Below are positions 34,296-41,952 of a stretch of 64,000 nucleotides of DNA, in pieces. Origin of the DNA: Chloroflexota bacterium. GTDB taxonomy: Bacteria > Chloroflexota > UBA11872. Each line of letters opens with the position of its first letter. The stretch's first letter is position 1. Location of the stretch: positions 1 to 64,000 of the forward strand of contig JAPOVQ010000021.1 of NCBI GenBank assembly GCA_026708035.1, written 5' to 3'. The translations under genes and the position numbers were made by a program. Below the pieces are notes generated by a model. It was not told the DNA's origin. It worked only from the letters and a program-made list of their open reading frames with translations, and made no database searches.

Positions 34296-35981
34296 TCACT
34301 GTATCGAGCCGAACAATCGTTCCTCGGGCGTGCGCGCGGACTCCGGGTCAGCCGCCTCGAGCGAGCGATCGACAGGCGGCAATTGTGACCGCGCCCGCCG
34401 CCACGCGTCCACTACATCGGGCGACTCGCCGCCGTGAGGCGTGAGCCGCGGACGCACGCGACACAGCACCGTCGTATTGACCGCCGCGCCCGCCACTATC
34501 GCCTGTCCTTTGCTGAGCGCCGGCAGTTCGGCCAGCAGCTCGCGTCCGGCGCTCTCGACCGCGCCGGCGATGGCCTGCTGATCCACGGGGTTCACCACCC
34601 GCAGGATGCACTGGGTCATGCATTGGCTCAGCACGTCCTGGTCAAGCTTGCCGGGACGCTGTGAGATCAGTCCCACGGCAAACCCGAACTTTCGACCCTC
34701 GGCCAGGATCTGCTTGAGCAGGTTGGTGGTGGGCACCTCCTCGCCGGCCGGCGCGAAGTGGTGGGCTTCCTCAATGAGAGTGAACACCGGTGCCGGGAGA
34801 TACCGCTCGTCGTCCGAGCCGATGCGCTGCTTGGCGGTGCCCACGCGACCGTCGAACGAGCGGCGCAGCAGCGTCGCGGCGATGACCTGCTGCTCCTCGC
34901 GCGGCACCTCGTTGAGCTGCACCACGGTGCACTGCCCGGGCCGAATCAGCTCCTGCAGCGACGTGTGCTCGTAGTCATCGAAGATGCCGTCCTGGCGGCC
35001 AAGGGTGGCGTTGAGGCGCCACATCAACGCGCGCTTGACGAGCATGTAGTCGGCGCCATCGTCGCCGGCGTTGCGCGGGCCGCCGCTCAGCTCGACGTCG
35101 TTGACGGCTTCCGTCAGTTGCCGATACGTCCAGCGGCGGCCGCGGTCGATGCCGACGGCTCGCAGCGCCAACCTGAGGACCTCGCGCTGCGGTCCGGATA
35201 GCCCGTGCGTGGAGCCGACGAGCTGATAGATGTCGCTCGGGTGCAGCAGGTCGCGGCGGATCTTGATCTGCTCCGGGCGCACGACCAGCGTCCGCGCGCG
35301 ATAGCCGTCACCGCGGAAGCCGGGGTGGTTGGCGATCTCGTCGAGTGTGCCGTACTCCCCATGGGGATCGACGACCACCACCGCCGCGCCCACCGATGGC
35401 TGCATCAGCTCCTCGACGATCACGCCCGCGAGGTAGCTCTTGCCGGCGCCGGTGCCCGCGATGATGGCCAAGTGCGTGCTGGCAAACTCGTTCACGTCGA
35501 GCGTGATGGGCACGCGATCCCTGGCGCGCGTGAGCAGACTGCCGATGTGCGCCGCGCCGGGTTTACCGTGCGGAATCCGCGAAAGCGCGTGCGCCAGGTC
35601 GTCGTCCGGGACCAGATAGACGGGCCGTCCAGCGCGGGGCGCCACCCGCGGATTCACGAAGCCCAGCGTGTCGTCGAAGTAGCCCAGGACAGCGACGTCG
35701 AACTCATACAGCTCCGGCGTCGCATGATCGAATCCGATCAGCCCGGCCACCCGGCTGGGCGCGACCTGCGGGTCGGCCATGAAGGCGTCCGGATAGAGCT
35801 TGAGCGGGCGGCGCGCGTCGATGCGGCCCAGCACGGAGCGCAACTCCCCATCGACCCGGGCGTCGTACGCCACGAACTCGCCGATCTTGAGCTGGTCGTC
35901 GGCGTCCGGAGCGACCAGGGTGTAGGTATGCGGGGACTCGCCAGGCCCCTTGGTGGTGCCAACGGGCACGGCCCCGCTCAT
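34296..35981 (-). CDS. herA: HerA-family DNA translocase/helicase
   Basis: This is a 561-residue FtsK/HerA-type ATPase. An N-terminal HAS-barrel region (residues about 18-130) is followed by the Walker A loop AIIAGTGAGKSYLAGVIVEE (about 173-192), DPHGEYGTLDEI, the Walker B FTLIEEAHHFAP near residue 402, and a sensor region AEGRKFGFAVGLISQRPGKL. HerA is a hexameric DNA translocase that forms a complex with the nuclease NurA and, with Mre11-Rad50, resects DNA ends. It is the last gene of a five-gene operon, starting with ATGA overlap on the preceding gene. The context excludes the lone HerA proteins of defence islands. Confidence 0.93.
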   Translation of the reverse strand: MSGAVPVGTTKGPGESPHTYTLVAPDADDQLKIGEFVAYDARVDGELRSVLGRIDARRPLKLYPDAFMADPQVAPSRVAGLIGFDHATPELYEFDVAVLGYFDDTLGFVNPRVAPRAGRPVYLVPDDDLAHALSRIPHGKPGAAHIGSLLTRARDRVPITLDVNEFASTHLAIIAGTGAGKSYLAGVIVEELMQPSVGAAVVVVDPHGEYGTLDEIANHPGFRGDGYRARTLVVRPEQIKIRRDLLHPSDIYQLVGSTHGLSGPQREVLRLALRAVGIDRGRRWTYRQLTEAVNDVELSGGPRNAGDDGADYMLVKRALMWRLNATLGRQDGIFDDYEHTSLQELIRPGQCTVVQLNEVPREEQQVIAATLLRRSFDGRVGTAKQRIGSDDERYLPAPVFTLIEEAHHFAPAGEEVPTTNLLKQILAEGRKFGFAVGLISQRPGKLDQDVLSQCMTQCILRVVNPVDQQAIAGAVESAGRELLAELPALSKGQAIVAGAAVNTTVLCRVRPRLTPHGGESPDVVDAWRRARSQLPPVDRSLEAADPESARTPEERLFGSIQ

Positions 35982-36562
35982 CCGGCCGCCTCGATGCGCG
36001 TGCGCCAGGCGATGGAGTCCCGCAGCACGGCCACCGCGCCCGCGTGCGCGGGAAACGCCTCGACCAGGCGCTGGGTGATCGCCAGCGCCAGCTCCGAGGT
36101 CAGCGGGTGTCCGTGGGCCAGCAGCAGCGGCAGATAGGCCGCCCGCAGCCCGTCGTCGGCGCTATGGAAGGCCTCGAACTCGGCATCGACCAGCCGGTGA
36201 ACCGCGTCCCCGACGCTGAGGGCATGGGCCACCACGCCCTGCGTCACCTCGCCGCCAGCGGACCGTGAGCCGAGGAGCAGCACGCCGATCAGGGTCGCGG
36301 TCTCGGGCAACTGGTCGGGAGCGAGCGTTTGCAGCTCGGTGCTGGTGGTCAACCGGGGACCGAGCGCGCCGAACTCCGGGTTGACGAGCGTGGCGTCGAA
36401 GACGACGCCGATGGCCGAGTCGCCGGCGGACCGCGGAACGGCGACGAAGGTGCCAAAGGCGTAGTCGCCGGGCTCGGGCGCGACATCGACCTCGCCGGGG
36501 CGATCAACCTGCGCCACGTACTCCACGTGCGAGTTGGATTTCACGATCCTCGCGAGCCTCAT
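35978..36562 (-). CDS. HAS-barrel-like small protein between nurA and herA
   Basis: This 194-residue protein overlaps nurA and herA by 4 nt on each side, so it is an integral part of the operon. The N-terminal half (MRLARIVKSNSHVEYVAQVD, then GDYAFGTFVAVP and AIGVVFDATLVNPEFG) resembles the HAS barrel found at the start of HerA itself. The C-terminal half is helical (HALSVGDAVHRLVDAEFEAF, LALAITQRLVEAFPAHAGAV) with no catalytic motif. A plausible role is an adaptor or assembly factor that binds HerA or NurA; this is inference from position and fold impression only. Confidence 0.75.
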   Translation of the reverse strand: MRLARIVKSNSHVEYVAQVDRPGEVDVAPEPGDYAFGTFVAVPRSAGDSAIGVVFDATLVNPEFGALGPRLTTSTELQTLAPDQLPETATLIGVLLLGSRSAGGEVTQGVVAHALSVGDAVHRLVDAEFEAFHSADDGLRAAYLPLLLAHGHPLTSELALAITQRLVEAFPAHAGAVAVLRDSIAWRTRIEAAG

Positions 36563-37731
36563 CGGCGCCGCCGCTTGCTCGCCGATTTCCCGGAGAGATG
36601 GGCGTCCAGGCCATTGCGCTCGGCGAAGTCCTGGAACAGCGCGTGGAATCGGTCACGGTCGGCCTGGGTCAGCACCGCCAGCGCGTCGGCCGTCTCGGCG
36701 GCGTAGGGATAGCCATCGGCCTGGGCGACGACTTCGGCGCGAACGACGTCGGTCATCCATTCGGTGCGGCCGGCCTCGACCACCCAGCGTGGGAATTCGA
36801 GCCGCGCCGGCCGGCGGCGGGACGAGGCGCGCAAATAGAGAAAGGCGACCGAGCGCGCGTGCTCGCCGTAGCCTTCCAGGCCCGTGCCTCGCGCGCTGAT
36901 GAACGCCGGCGTGCGCGCGCCCCACGGGGCCGGCGGCAGCCAGACGCCATCGGTGACGCGACGCGGGGGGTCGGTGTGGCGCACCGCCGCCACCATGACG
37001 CCGAGGTCCCGCGCGCGGCTGGCGTCGATATAGCCCACGACCGGCACCGCATGCGATTCAGAGGCCACCAGCAGGCGCACCACCGCCGCCACGTAGCGCT
37101 GGCGTAGGTCGGGGTTCCTGACGAATGAGGCGATCAGACTGCCGTCGAAGATCGCCACTCGCTCAGTCTCTGCGTCGGAGTCTTCGATCCACTCGGTGAG
37201 GGCCGCGCACTCGGCCTGGAAGCGCCGCAGGTCCACAAGCTCGCGCGGATGGCTCTCTTGGTTGTCGGCGCCGTAGAGGTCCGTGGCCGGGATGGCCTCG
37301 AAGTGCAGGTCCTTGGAGTAGGCGTCCTTGGCGTGACCGTTGACGAAGCGGCCGATCTGCACCGCCCCCACGTCGATCGACCACTCGGACGACGGATAGA
37401 TCTGGCTCCCGTCCACGGCGCAGGTGGTGACGCCCGTGAGCGTGCGCATGGCCCAGGCGCGCCAGGATTCATGGGTGTCGCCGGCGTTGGCCGTGAATGG
37501 CCGCCACCACGCGCCGTCCGGCGTCGTGTCCCACTCGTCGGTGGGAAAAGCCCCTTCGGCGTGGTCGAGACCGCCGAGTGCATCGCGGAGCGCCTGGGCC
37601 GTGAGGCCGCGCATAACTCTTGCACCGCGGCGCAGGCCGTCGAGCTCGCGCGCGAACGCCTGGTCAAGGGTGAGGAAGTCATCGCGCCGGCTTTCCAGCG
37701 CCTCGATCACCTTGGTCCGCGACAGCGTCAT
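36559..37731 (-). CDS. nurA: NurA-family 5'-3' nuclease
   Basis: The 390-residue nuclease has a NurA domain: the first metal-binding Asp (about 107) is in TCAVDGSQIYPSSEWSIDVG, the second is in RVAIFDGSLIASFVRNPD, and VPVVGYIDASRARDLGVMVA follows. The C-terminus carries RTEWMTDVVRAEVVAQADGY, the late conserved acidic segment. NurA digests DNA ends and is driven by the HerA motor. It overlaps both the rad50 stop and the next gene's start by 4 nt (ATGA), giving translational coupling. It ends with a basic KSASKRRRR tail. Confidence 0.92.
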   Translation of the reverse strand: MTLSRTKVIEALESRRDDFLTLDQAFARELDGLRRGARVMRGLTAQALRDALGGLDHAEGAFPTDEWDTTPDGAWWRPFTANAGDTHESWRAWAMRTLTGVTTCAVDGSQIYPSSEWSIDVGAVQIGRFVNGHAKDAYSKDLHFEAIPATDLYGADNQESHPRELVDLRRFQAECAALTEWIEDSDAETERVAIFDGSLIASFVRNPDLRQRYVAAVVRLLVASESHAVPVVGYIDASRARDLGVMVAAVRHTDPPRRVTDGVWLPPAPWGARTPAFISARGTGLEGYGEHARSVAFLYLRASSRRRPARLEFPRWVVEAGRTEWMTDVVRAEVVAQADGYPYAAETADALAVLTQADRDRFHALFQDFAERNGLDAHLSGKSASKRRRR

Positions 37732-40661
37732 GCGACCTCGACCCGGCTCTCGCCGTTGACCTTGCGCACGTGAATCACGTGGTCGAGCATCCGCTCGAAG
37801 CTGTCGTCGTGGGTGATAACCACAAGCTGCTTGAAGCCACGCACGTGGAGAATCTGCTCGGCGAGGTTGGTGCGGCGGGTGTCGTCGAGATTCTGCGTCG
37901 GCTCGTCGAAGAATGCGACGTCAATGTGGAGCAGCTCGCGCAGCAGCGCCAGCCGCACCGCCAGCGCGGCGGTCATCTGCTCGCCCCCGGAAAGCTGGGT
38001 GAAGCTGCGGGTGTGACCGCCGCGCTCGAGGACGATGTCGTAGTCGGGGGTCCAGCGAAGGCGACCGGCGCGGTCGCCGAGCACCTCGCCGAAGATCTCG
38101 TCCGCCGCCTCGCTCACGTCGGCTAGCAGCGCCTCGGTGACGAGCGGCCCGGCGGCTCGCAGCACCCCCCGCATGAGCTCCGTGCGCTCGCGCAGGGCTT
38201 TCGCTCGGGCGACCGCACGGTTTTCGGCGTCGAGGCGGCCCGCAACCTCCGCGAGTTCGTCCAGTTCCTTCCGCCGCTCAGCGATCCGCGCATCTTGGGC
38301 CTCGGCGCGGGTGTCGAGCTCGGTCTTGCACGCGATGGCCGCGTTGCGAGCCTCGTGCGCCTCATCTCGCGCCGCGCGATCCGCCGCGGCTCCCAACCTA
38401 GCCGCCAAGCCCCAGGCGTCCGCTGTCGTTGTCACAGCGTCCCGGACCTGCGCCTGGACGACTTGCAGACGCTCGGCGCGTTGCTCCGTCTCGGACGCCA
38501 GGCGCTCGTGCTGGAGATAGCGCTCGTGGCCGGCGCGAGATTCGTCCAGCTTCCGCTGGGCGGCCTGGACTTCGGCGAGGCGCGGTTCGAGGTCGCGCAT
38601 TGTGACGTCGGCAGCGGCCCGCGCGGCGGCGGCGCGCTCGGCGTCTGCGACCGCTTGGCGCGCGGCCTGTGCTCGGGCGTCCTGCTCGTCGGCCAGCGCC
38701 TGGGCCTGGACCAGCCTGCCGCCGGCGCCGACGTGGGGTTGCAGGGCCTGCTCGGCCTCCTGAATCTGCCCGTTTAACCGCGCAGCGTCGCCGGCGGCTT
38801 GCCGCGATTCGGCCAGGGATTCAAGCGCACCGACCAGGCGCCGGGCCATGCCGATGAGGTGATCGGGCCGCGCCTCGGGCGGCAACTCGGCCTCGGCCGA
38901 GTCGATAGCGGCGTTGAGCGCCTTGGCGTCCTCGCCCTGCGCCGCCGTCGACACCGGGTGCATGCCCTCGAGCACCGCCCGCGCCGCGAGGTGCTCGCTT
39001 TTTGCGGCTTCCAGGGCATCGTGGCGCGCCGGCAAATCGCCCATGCGCCGTTGGGCATCCTCGGCCTCACGCAGCGCCGTCTGCGCCGTGGCCTCACCGT
39101 TCGCCAGCTGCTCGACGTGACGCTGGTGGCTCGAGGCGCGCTGCTCGAAGACCAGCGCCACATCCGGAACATCGGCCAGATTGCGGCATTCGGAGTCGAA
39201 GAAGGGACAGACTTTCGTTTGCTCCAGCAGGGCCGCGGCCTCGTCGTCAGCCGCCATGACCGCTGTGACACTGGCGCGCTGCGTCTGTAGATCTCGCAGG
39301 GCCTGACCACGCGAGTCGAGCTGGTCAACCAGGGGCCGTAACGCGGACGCCGCTTCCCAATCGGCTTCGAGTTGCCGGACCCGCGCTCCAGCTGCCTCGA
39401 CATCTGCGGCGCATCGCTGGTATCCGTCGGCGAAATCCCGCCGCGCTCCCGCAACCTGCGTTTGCGCGCGGTCGGCGCTTTCCGCGGTCGCCCTCGCAAC
39501 CGCAAGGCGGCCGTTCAACTCTTGGACGGCTACCACCGCTTCCGTCTCCGCAGCCGCCGCGTCGGCAAGCTTCCCGAGCCCTTCTGCGGCCGCCTTGGCC
39601 TCCGCCAGCGTCTGCCGCGCTTGGTCCCGGGCAACGGCGGCGCGGGTCTCGTCCGCCTGCAGCGACGACAGCCGTTCGCGCAGAACATCGCGCTCGCCGC
39701 TCACGTCTCCCAGCTTCTTGATCTCGTCCTGTGCCGCGGCATACGCTTCATGGTCGGCGCGGGTCTCGTCGACTTCGTCCGCCGCGCGTTTTGCCTCGGC
39801 CACCTGGCTCTCGGCGTCGCGCGCGGCCTGCTGGAGCGTCAGCAGCTGCGAGTCGGCGAGTTTGGCCGCCGTAAGGGCCGCGTCGGCGGCCTGCGCTTCC
39901 GCGTCATGCCGCTGCGCGGCCGCAACCGCCTGATCCAGCTTGGCTTGCGCCGCGATGCGGTCCTGCGCGATCTCGTGGGCCTCGCGCCGGGCTTCGGCGA
40001 GCGCCGCTTCAGCGGCGGGCTGCGCCTCCAACCGGTGCGCGAGCTCATTGGCCGTCGATTCATGCGCCACCCGCTGCTTGTCAAAGTGGTTGAGTAGCGG
40101 GCGGAGGTCATCGACCGCCCGCTTGAACTCGTCGACGCGCAGGATGGGATCGAAGCGCTCGCGGCGCAGGCTCGGGGTATCCAGGAAGTCCGCGGTGAGG
40201 CGGCCCTGCGGCACGCCGACGACTCGGTCGAACACCTCGTCGGGTCCGGTGAATCCGGCGACGCCCAGGTGCTGCGCCAGAAAGGCCTCGACATCGTCGG
40301 CGCGTTCCTCGAACACGCGTCGTTGCTCGACGTCGAAGATCTCCGAGTCCATCGACGCCTGGGGCGAGAGCGCCCCGGTGCCGCGGGCGCGGGTGCGGTG
40401 CAGCTTGCGCGTGACGCGGTAGCGCCGCTCGTCCAGCCCTGAGGTGAACTCGATCGCCACCGACGCATCCGTTGCGCCGTGTCGCATGACGCTCGCGAGG
40501 GGGCGTGGGCGGGCGTCGAACACGCCCAATCCGATGGCCTGGAGGATCGCCGTCTTGCCCGCGCCGTTGTCGCCCACGATGGCGGTGAGGCCGGGCGCCA
40601 TGTCGATGGCAGCGGTAGCAAAGCTCTTGAAATTGGTGATTTCGATGCGGTGGATCAGCAT
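37728..40661 (-). CDS. rad50: Rad50/SbcC-like SMC-family ATPase
   Basis: The 977-residue ATPase partners Mre11. The N-terminal nucleotide-binding half has MLIHRIEITNFKSFATAAID and Walker A GDNGAGKTAIL. Two long Ala/Glu/Arg-rich coiled-coil arms meet at an apex near residues 485-492 (KVCPFFDSECRNL). The C-terminal half has the signature FTQLSGGEQMTAALAVRLAL and Walker B/D-loop VAFFDEPTQNLDDTRRTNLA. The apex cysteines (485 and 492) are separated by six residues, instead of the CxxC of standard zinc hooks. The start at 40661 is the family start; the frame reads 50 codons further into mre11. It follows the mre11 stop by 1 nt and overlaps nurA by 4 nt. Confidence 0.93.
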   Translation of the reverse strand: MLIHRIEITNFKSFATAAIDMAPGLTAIVGDNGAGKTAILQAIGLGVFDARPRPLASVMRHGATDASVAIEFTSGLDERRYRVTRKLHRTRARGTGALSPQASMDSEIFDVEQRRVFEERADDVEAFLAQHLGVAGFTGPDEVFDRVVGVPQGRLTADFLDTPSLRRERFDPILRVDEFKRAVDDLRPLLNHFDKQRVAHESTANELAHRLEAQPAAEAALAEARREAHEIAQDRIAAQAKLDQAVAAAQRHDAEAQAADAALTAAKLADSQLLTLQQAARDAESQVAEAKRAADEVDETRADHEAYAAAQDEIKKLGDVSGERDVLRERLSSLQADETRAAVARDQARQTLAEAKAAAEGLGKLADAAAAETEAVVAVQELNGRLAVARATAESADRAQTQVAGARRDFADGYQRCAADVEAAGARVRQLEADWEAASALRPLVDQLDSRGQALRDLQTQRASVTAVMAADDEAAALLEQTKVCPFFDSECRNLADVPDVALVFEQRASSHQRHVEQLANGEATAQTALREAEDAQRRMGDLPARHDALEAAKSEHLAARAVLEGMHPVSTAAQGEDAKALNAAIDSAEAELPPEARPDHLIGMARRLVGALESLAESRQAAGDAARLNGQIQEAEQALQPHVGAGGRLVQAQALADEQDARAQAARQAVADAERAAAARAAADVTMRDLEPRLAEVQAAQRKLDESRAGHERYLQHERLASETEQRAERLQVVQAQVRDAVTTTADAWGLAARLGAAADRAARDEAHEARNAAIACKTELDTRAEAQDARIAERRKELDELAEVAGRLDAENRAVARAKALRERTELMRGVLRAAGPLVTEALLADVSEAADEIFGEVLGDRAGRLRWTPDYDIVLERGGHTRSFTQLSGGEQMTAALAVRLALLRELLHIDVAFFDEPTQNLDDTRRTNLAEQILHVRGFKQLVVITHDDSFERMLDHVIHVRKVNGESRVEVA

Positions 40662-40662
40662 G

Positions 40663-41952
40663 TCAGGGCAGCGCGGCCTCCACGATCGAGGCCAGGGCCG
40701 CCTCGTCTTGCCCCTCGAGGACCGATCGCTTGAGCTCGAGCGTGCGCTCGGCCAGCGTCTCGGCTTGGGCCGCGACCGCCGGCTCCTGGGCCAGCAACTC
40801 GCGCACCACATCGCGCTCGATCTGCTCCCGCGACCCGCTGCGGACGCGCACGCCGGCCCCCAGCGTGCGCTCCACCTCCACGGTCACGCGGGCGTGCAGT
40901 GGATCGTAATGCTCCTGGACGAGCTCTAGCAGCGCCGGCTGATCCAGCGAGGCCCGCTCGAATTCAAGCGCGCCGCGCAGCACGATCTCCACCATCGGAC
41001 GAGGTCCCGAGGCCGCCGACGGCGGGTCGAGCGCAGCGGCTACTTTTTCCCGCAGCGCCGCGAAGCTCTCCGTGCCGGTGACGTCGATGGCGAGACGCAC
41101 GAACGGCCGGCGTTCGACCACGTCGTCGAGAAACCGCGCCTTGATTCGCGGCGCGGCTTCGAGGTGCACTGTGACGTCGTACAACCCGCGCTCGCGCCCC
41201 GCGCCGGCCAGACCGGGTTCACCGATCAGCCCTTCCGTGATGCTGTGGGCCTCGAGCGCGCCGGGATTGAAGATCCAGGGCTCCTGGATGGGCACCTCGT
41301 AGCGGTAGTGGATATGTCCCAGCGCCAGGTAGTCGGCGACGCCACGCAGTTGCAGCAGGTCGGCCGCGCCCACGCCGCCCTGCCCGCCTGGCGACTCCTC
41401 ATCCACGCCCGTGTGCAGCACGCCGATCTGGAACTGCACGCCGTCCGCGGGCGCCGCCTGCGCCGCCTCGATCACCCGGGGCAGGTGGTCGGCCAAACGC
41501 GCGCCCAGATACTCCACGCCGAAGATGCGCACCGGCCCGATGTCCGTATAGGCCCCGTGGCCGCGCTCGGCGGTCCAGGGCCGCCACGCCAATCCTTCGC
41601 GCTCGGGGTCGATCTGCTGGAGCAAGCGGAGCCGGTTGCTCCGGCTGAGCTGCCAGAGCCAGGAGCGCTCGCCGCGGCGAAACCAACGCTCGTGATTGCC
41701 CTCGACGGCGACCACCGGAATCCCGTCCTGCGCCAGCAGGGCCAGGCCGGCGTCGGCGTCAGCGTAGGTGCGGGGATCGATGGACTTGGAGTCGAACAGA
41801 TCGCCCGCCAGGATCACGAAGTCCGGCCGCACCCGGCGGCAATAGGTCATGACGCTGCCAAAGGCGCGGGTGAAGTCCTCGGCGCGTTCGGTCAGGCCGT
41901 ATTGCTTGAAGCCCAAGTGCGCGTCGGCGAAATGGACGAAGCGAACCTGCAT
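40663..41952 (-). CDS. mre11: Mre11/SbcD-like nuclease
   Basis: This 429-residue calcineurin-like phosphoesterase has all five Mre11 motifs in order: FVHFADAHLGFKQY, FVILAGDLFDSKSI, VVAVEGNHERWF, the His of GVLHTGVDE, and LALGHIHYRYEVP. These bind two Mn ions for exo- and endonuclease cleavage. Capping and Rad50-binding regions follow. It is the first gene of the operon. Two adjacent start codons (GTG at 41955, ATG at 41952) are possible, and neither has an obvious ribosome site; I took the ATG. Its product would nick or trim DNA ends for NurA-HerA. Confidence 0.93.
   Translation of the reverse strand: MQVRFVHFADAHLGFKQYGLTERAEDFTRAFGSVMTYCRRVRPDFVILAGDLFDSKSIDPRTYADADAGLALLAQDGIPVVAVEGNHERWFRRGERSWLWQLSRSNRLRLLQQIDPEREGLAWRPWTAERGHGAYTDIGPVRIFGVEYLGARLADHLPRVIEAAQAAPADGVQFQIGVLHTGVDEESPGGQGGVGAADLLQLRGVADYLALGHIHYRYEVPIQEPWIFNPGALEAHSITEGLIGEPGLAGAGRERGLYDVTVHLEAAPRIKARFLDDVVERRPFVRLAIDVTGTESFAALREKVAAALDPPSAASGPRPMVEIVLRGALEFERASLDQPALLELVQEHYDPLHARVTVEVERTLGAGVRVRSGSREQIERDVVRELLAQEPAVAAQAETLAERTLELKRSVLEGQDEAALASIVEAALP

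Follow-up and report, generated by a model that had tools for sequence, protein, structure and literature searches.

An archaeal-like mre11-rad50-nurA-herA operon with a gene for a predicted free-standing HAS-barrel protein in a Chloroflexota genome

In archaea such as Sulfolobus and Thermococcus, herA, mre11, rad50 and nurA lie on one strand in an operon in which herA stands beside mre11. Among bacteria, Deinococcus radiodurans possesses a HerA-NurA pair in which the ring of HAS (HerA-ATP-synthase) barrels of HerA is the docking site of NurA (PMC9960219, PMC5448004), with no third gene described and no Mre11-Rad50 (per PMC12977600), and a nurA-hepA (HerA)-sbcD-sbcC cluster of Oceanithermus profundus, reported in 2017, brings all four functions together (PMC5448004). 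The HerA fold with its HAS-barrel also occurs in the anti-phage systems HerA-SIR2 (Nezha) and HerA-DUF4297. Here we describe an operon in a 64,000-nucleotide (nt) stretch of DNA, the window (positions 1 to 64,000 of contig JAPOVQ010000021.1, assembly GCA_026708035.1), from the genome of a Chloroflexota bacterium (3.46 Mb, 96% complete), in which mre11, rad50, nurA and herA are accompanied by a small gene whose product is predicted to be a free-standing HAS-barrel. This small protein is what appears new. The linkage alone is not, since the Oceanithermus cluster has already been published (PMC5448004), and the view of the initial annotation of this DNA that such linkage is exceptional for bacteria had to be dropped, as the same five-gene order recurs in several Chloroflexota lineages, including Anaerolineae and Aggregatilineales assemblies. 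Our literature search, which did not extend to a 2004 FtsK-HerA survey and a 2004 herA operon paper, found no description of the small HAS-barrel protein or of its co-occurrence with HerA, and neither the Chloroflexota five-gene operon nor the copies on haloarchaeal plasmids (see below) were found described.

The genes are transcribed from the minus strand in the order mre11, rad50, nurA, small gene and herA (Table 1), and the layout was exactly as first annotated, with five open reading frames on one strand, a 1-nt spacer between the mre11 stop codon (TGA, 40665-40663) and the rad50 ATG at 40661, and 4-nt ATGA overlaps at the rad50/nurA, nurA/small gene and small gene/herA junctions. The four named genes were securely assigned by Pfam and NCBIfam, the Pfam matches being DUF87 for HerA (5.7e-38), NurA for NurA (6.6e-27), SMC_N and AAA_23 for Rad50 and Metallophos for Mre11. 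The reading frames and these matches confirmed that a complete mre11-rad50-nurA-herA set is contained in one bacterial operon, clustered on one strand as in the archaeal system.

The small protein matched no Pfam, NCBIfam or PADLOC model and no PDB sequence, and the curated HAS-barrel model of Pfam (PF09378) did not recognize it. An AlphaFold model, built on a 65-sequence alignment (predicted local distance difference test, pLDDT, 86; predicted template modeling score, pTM, 0.81), was compared with known structures using Foldseek and VIA-align, and its top matches were the N-terminal domains of HerA (VIA Z up to 12.4), followed by F1-ATPase barrels (Z 8.9); the match to the HAS-barrel of D. 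radiodurans HerA reached Z 10.6. In the model, strands and helices follow one another as they do in residues 6-133 of the window HerA model, after which come helices and no ATPase domain. These models indicated that the small protein is a HAS-barrel, and thus the operon would encode two such barrels, one free and one within HerA. Profile-profile comparison by hhalign detected no homology in sequence between the small protein and the N terminus of the window HerA, and the likeness of the two is therefore one of fold. On the other hand, hhalign revealed homology (95% probability, E 1.8e-8, 155 columns) to another small protein encoded between nurA and a herA of a different subfamily in Chloroflexota (loci L185 and L187). 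These operons share with the window operon a homologous small protein between nurA and herA, and differ in that their HerA and NurA belong to other subfamilies (75-90 bits and 77-102 bits, respectively, with window-type profiles) and in the absence of rad50 linkage in the loci seen. This homology suggests that bacterial HerA-NurA operons may in general include a free HAS-barrel subunit. The proteins of the second family are of HAS type, about 200 amino acids (aa) in length and not in Pfam (L185 9089-9688, L187 6736-7332, L058 2505-3107).

Searching public genomes with the small protein yielded 72 loci in Chloroflexota, Acidobacteriota (Pyrinomonadaceae and others), Cyanobacteria, one Cloacimonetes and one Nitrospinota assembly. 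Its distribution followed that of one HerA subfamily, marked by a KGPGE signature, to which the operon HerA belongs. Among 101 relatives, this subfamily was found in 26 and the small protein in 25, the sole mismatch being a genome that is 69% complete, and NurA was found in 24 of the 25 relatives with the small protein. Counted by genus, both proteins occurred in 13 of 60 genera and neither occurred alone in any; the genome and genus counts are raw and not corrected for shared ancestry. In other phyla, the small gene was unlinked from herA in nine genomes, and a subfamily HerA was nonetheless present in 9/9 (709-817 bits with the subfamily profile, on which HerA proteins outside the subfamily score at most about 256 bits). 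The tie to HerA is strengthened by these nine genomes, since they keep both genes though unlinked. The ATGA overlap of the small gene with herA was also seen in distant lineages.

Three further observations concern the surroundings of the small gene. In Acidobacteriota, where herA lies at another place in the genome, nurA and the small gene are separated by a gene for a zinc-ribbon-like protein of 160-190 aa (L135 9392-9901, L139 9453-9941, L144 9430-9993), and in Thermogemmatispora a protein of about 1265 aa with a PD-(D/E)XK nuclease domain is encoded beside small gene-herA (L046 10359-14156). A copy at the end of a contig assigned to a Thermofilaceae archaeon (L165 7640-8469) was rejected as mis-binned or chimeric, because its product is 99.5% identical to the small protein of a Nitrospinota metagenome-assembled genome (L146) and because that archaeal genome's own herA-mre11-rad50 locus has no small gene.

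We then assessed the affinity of the operon proteins. Mre11 scored 90 bits with archaeal Mre11 models versus 39.2 bits with the SbcD model TIGR00619, whose cut-off of 77.65 was not reached, and in a tree with crenarchaeal sequences and Chloroflexota SbcD the operon Mre11 formed its own clade on the archaeal side (support 99), not grouping with SbcD of the same phylum. For HerA, the best profile was an archaeal repair HerA model (197 bits), the best structural matches were the HerA proteins of Thermococcus and Sulfolobus, which belong to archaeal HerA-NurA, rather than anti-phage HerA, and the operon HerA formed its own clade (support 99-100) beside but outside the crenarchaeal sequences. Neither protein nested among archaeal chromosomal homologues. 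The trees were quick ones, with Shimodaira-Hasegawa-like approximate likelihood ratio test (SH-aLRT) support only and some long branches, so that the exact sister group is unsure. Overall, Mre11, Rad50 and HerA resemble archaeal homologues more closely than they do SbcCD or anti-phage HerA, and the archaeal type proposed in the initial annotation was thus supported by profiles and trees; nesting within SbcCD families, which had been named as refuting it, was not seen. A recent archaeal import into the window genome was rejected, because the operon sequences form a clade of their own whose branching agrees with relationships within Chloroflexota. As judged from these sequences, the operon is archaeal-like in kind, belongs to a separate, mostly bacterial clade and is vertically inherited in Chloroflexota. 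It differs from the archaeal operon in having herA last, in its Rad50 hook, in the separate HerA clade and in the stand-alone HAS-barrel gene, which was not found in 20 archaeal loci examined. From the Oceanithermus cluster it is set apart, by description only, in that the latter has SbcD and SbcC and another gene order, with no mention of a small HAS-barrel gene (PMC5448004).

The five-gene order was identical in 6/6 genomes of the window genus, each with three ATGA overlaps and one with a slightly different mre11-rad50 junction, and near-identical copies of the operon are present in public genomes of uncultured Chloroflexota. The flanks are syntenic throughout the genus, containing clpX and genes for phosphoenolpyruvate (PEP)-mutase-like, isochorismatase-like, superoxide dismutase (SOD), glycosyltransferase and DedA-like proteins. 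Loss of the small gene in close relatives, which the initial annotation regarded as counter-evidence, was not seen, the gene being present in all six genomes. Some relatives have herA displaced by one gene or onto another contig, and in distant lineages the set is split between two loci, one with mre11-rad50-nurA (L177, L178) or rad50-nurA (L182, L183) and one with small gene-herA. The strict coupling claimed for the junctions therefore holds within the genus but not among wider relatives, where the only overlap to recur regularly is that of the small gene with herA.

The sister genus was informative in this respect. NurA, the small protein and operon-type HerA were missing from all 13 of its genomes, while one genome examined in detail kept mre11-rad50 beside the same PEP-mutase-like and isochorismatase-like neighbors, and in trees the Mre11 of that genome is sister to that of the window. 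Because more distant relatives hold all five genes, the simplest reading is that nurA, the small gene and herA were lost as a unit, and this joint loss suggests two functional modules, one made up of these three genes and one of mre11-rad50. The operon was also considered as a general replacement of AddAB. Full-length AddB was used as the marker because PF12705 is too broad (89/101 genomes), and this search, which may miss a divergent AddB, gave no match in the window genome. AddAB was nevertheless found in one genome of the same genus (G004; L181 3908-10380), most sister-genus genomes lack both AddB and NurA-HerA, and general replacement was rejected in the absence of clean mutual exclusion. 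The AddB of G004 shares 71% identity with the AddB of two genomes of the sister genus, and their close kin are without AddAB, a pattern of sporadic gain or loss. RecJ is present in the window genome, so an independent resection route exists.

All catalytic motifs had initially been described as intact, and for the four enzymes this proved correct. The Walker A motif GTGAGKS and E404/E405 of HerA are conserved in 33 homologues, D107, E174, D196 and D261 of NurA in 46, and D10, H12, D51, N86, H87, H180, H213 and H215 of Mre11 are invariant across 16, with Walker A, LSGG and Walker B all present in Rad50. The description needs qualifying at the Rad50 zinc hook, where the window protein has C-x6-C in place of the CxxC expected of archaeal-type Rad50. 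This C-x6-C hook occurs throughout the window genus, and relatives show CP[FY][FLY]xxxC; a canonical CPxC is found in L101, L108, L136 and the haloarchaeal plasmids, and L034, L035 and L039 have a hook without cysteines. NurA, which had no PDB sequence match and is common among Chloroflexota relatives (62/101 genomes), ends in a K..SK..RR tail that is kept across phyla, including the haloarchaeal copies and nurA genes unlinked from herA, and most NurA proteins of the second subfamily carry a related S.K..SK tail. This tail may serve in docking or DNA binding. Elsewhere in the window genome (L176 4119-8356; G000 contig 19), a second Mre11-like phosphoesterase adjoins a 997-aa AAA_27 ATPase (YhaO/YhaN-like), a pair of a different type from that in the operon and also present in the sister genus.

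Table 1. Positions in the window of the operon genes and of selected protein motifs
Feature	Position	Strand	Description
mre11	40663..41952	-	429-aa calcineurin-like nuclease, archaeal-like Mre11 branch
rad50	37728..40661	-	SMC-type ATPase of 977 aa, carrying Walker A/B motifs and the LSGG signature
nurA	36559..37731	-	390-aa NurA nuclease
small gene	35978..36562	-	194-aa predicted stand-alone HAS-barrel protein, undescribed family
herA	34296..35981	-	HerA translocase of hexameric type, 561 aa, bearing a HAS-barrel at its N terminus
HerA Walker A, GTGAGKS (residues 176-182)	35436..35456	-	
HerA KGPGE signature (residues 11-15)	35937..35951	-	marks the operon-type HerA subfamily
Small protein IVKSNSH signature (residues 6-12)	36527..36547	-	turn between barrel strands one and two
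NurA C-terminal tail, KSASKRRRR (residues 382-390)	36562..36588	-	K, S, K, R, R invariant in 46/46 same-type homologues
Rad50 hook, CPFFDSEC (residues 485-492)	39186..39209	-	C-x6-C replaces the usual CxxC

What could this operon do? DNA end processing for homologous recombination is the best-supported function, in view of the enzyme set, the structural kinship of HerA, a chromosomal, syntenic locus amid housekeeping genes and the lack of an AddB match. We reasoned that the operon probably specifies a chromosomal machine for end resection at double-strand breaks, in which the small protein serves HerA-NurA as an adaptor or regulator. Our inferences on resection, on the complex and on what the small protein does run as follows: Mre11-Rad50 would bind the broken DNA end and open it, a HerA hexamer with a NurA dimer on its HAS-barrel ring would pump the duplex in for NurA to cut, and a recombinogenic 3′ tail would be left for RecA. 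Since NurA of Deinococcus docks on the HAS-barrel ring of HerA, a free HAS-barrel would most likely be an adaptor or regulator at that site, where it could sit at the HerA-NurA interface and set the attachment or activity of the nuclease, being made in step with HerA through the overlapping genes. Several observations weigh against this reading. The sister genus lives without nurA, the small gene and herA; one genome (G049) has the small gene and HerA with NurA undetected; hhalign found no homology between the small protein and the HerA N terminus; the plasmid copies adjoin defense-like genes; and a 2026 study of Thermococcus HerA-NurA doubts resection and suggests DNA destruction (PMC12977600).

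As to the small protein itself, a stronger proposal is that it is a third obligate subunit of HerA-NurA, forming either a mixed ring or an additional one that lies between hexameric HerA and dimeric NurA, a conceivable arrangement that we put forward tentatively. Alternatively, it could compete with the HAS ring of HerA for NurA, as an inhibitor or storage form, until Mre11-Rad50 marks an end. A HAS-barrel without ATPase would suit that task, as would the position of the small gene between nurA and herA, near nurA without herA in Acidobacteriota and beside herA without nurA in Ktedonobacteria; however, the recurrent translational coupling with herA equally fits a stoichiometric partner of HerA, and we regard the inhibitor as rather unlikely.

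A different rival to chromosomal end resection is a defense machine, in which Mre11-Rad50 would sense free ends and HerA-NurA would destroy invading linear DNA, as has been suggested for other HerA-nuclease pairs; in known anti-phage systems, nucleases are recruited by HerA (cited in PMC12977600). Evidence for it comes from haloarchaeal plasmids. Genes for a metallophosphoesterase, an SMC ATPase, NurA, a hypothetical protein and a DUF87 protein occur in the identical order on plasmids of Natrinema zhouii, halophilic archaeon DL31 and Halobaculum marinum, and a fourth plasmid, from Halorussus salilacus, carries the last two genes (hypothetical and DUF87). In trees these copies cluster with the bacterial clade and not with the crenarchaeal chromosomal operons. 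Directly upstream, in two of the three five-gene plasmids, lies a gene for a helicase that scores about 900 bits with PADLOC SngC (Shango) (L280 1-10623, L281 1-10602), and genes for a GajB-like helicase and for a methyltransferase are close to the operon on the DL31 plasmid. These copies show that the operon can travel, at times into a defense neighborhood. Two side observations on the plasmids are that the SngC-like helicase is itself preceded by another gene (for an ATP-binding protein in L280), and that PLSDB lists a 162-base DES-1 beta-lactamase overlapping the herA end in Halorussus (L283 2710-2871), probably a spurious prediction.

The plasmid context, together with the argument that Thermococcus HerA-NurA destroys duplex DNA (PMC12977600), makes defense a real rival. 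Against it, the locus of the window genus is chromosomal, syntenic and set amid housekeeping genes; its neighbors in the window encode ClpX, ClpP, trigger factor, SOD and polynucleotide phosphorylase (PNPase), none of them with a strong defense match. The window HerA falls far below both curated anti-phage cut-offs (90.7 versus 800 and 78.9 versus 850 bits), and, in contrast to the anti-phage systems, no SIR2 or DUF4297 effector stands beside herA, its partners being NurA and the small protein. Moreover, a search of viral contigs yielded no small gene, and Mre11 tracks host relationships. The chromosomal housekeeping neighborhood favors repair and the haloarchaeal plasmids keep defense in play, as an explanation that we consider distinctly unlikely. 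Lastly, chance assembly of an ordinary SbcCD and HerA-NurA set with the small gene as a bystander, for which one could cite SbcD/SbcC beside nurA-hepA in Oceanithermus (PMC5448004) and the wide occurrence of NurA in the phylum, is highly improbable, given that Mre11 falls short of the SbcD cut-off and groups apart from Chloroflexota SbcD and that the small protein follows HerA from lineage to lineage, including those in which the two genes are unlinked.

In the literature consulted, HerA-NurA figures as an archaeal system with a few bacterial exceptions, and whether it acts in resection is contested. The operon described here reveals a mostly bacterial branch, vertical in Chloroflexota and extending to Acidobacteriota, Cyanobacteria and other phyla, with a previously undescribed partner that follows HerA closely. 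If the small protein were a third obligate subunit, many bacteria and haloarchaeal plasmids would possess a three-part translocase-adaptor-nuclease coupled to Mre11-Rad50, and if it lies between HerA and NurA, it would open a way to study the attachment and switching of the nuclease. With a sister genus devoid of the nurA-small gene-herA trio and plasmid copies beside defense genes, the choice between repair and defense becomes directly testable.

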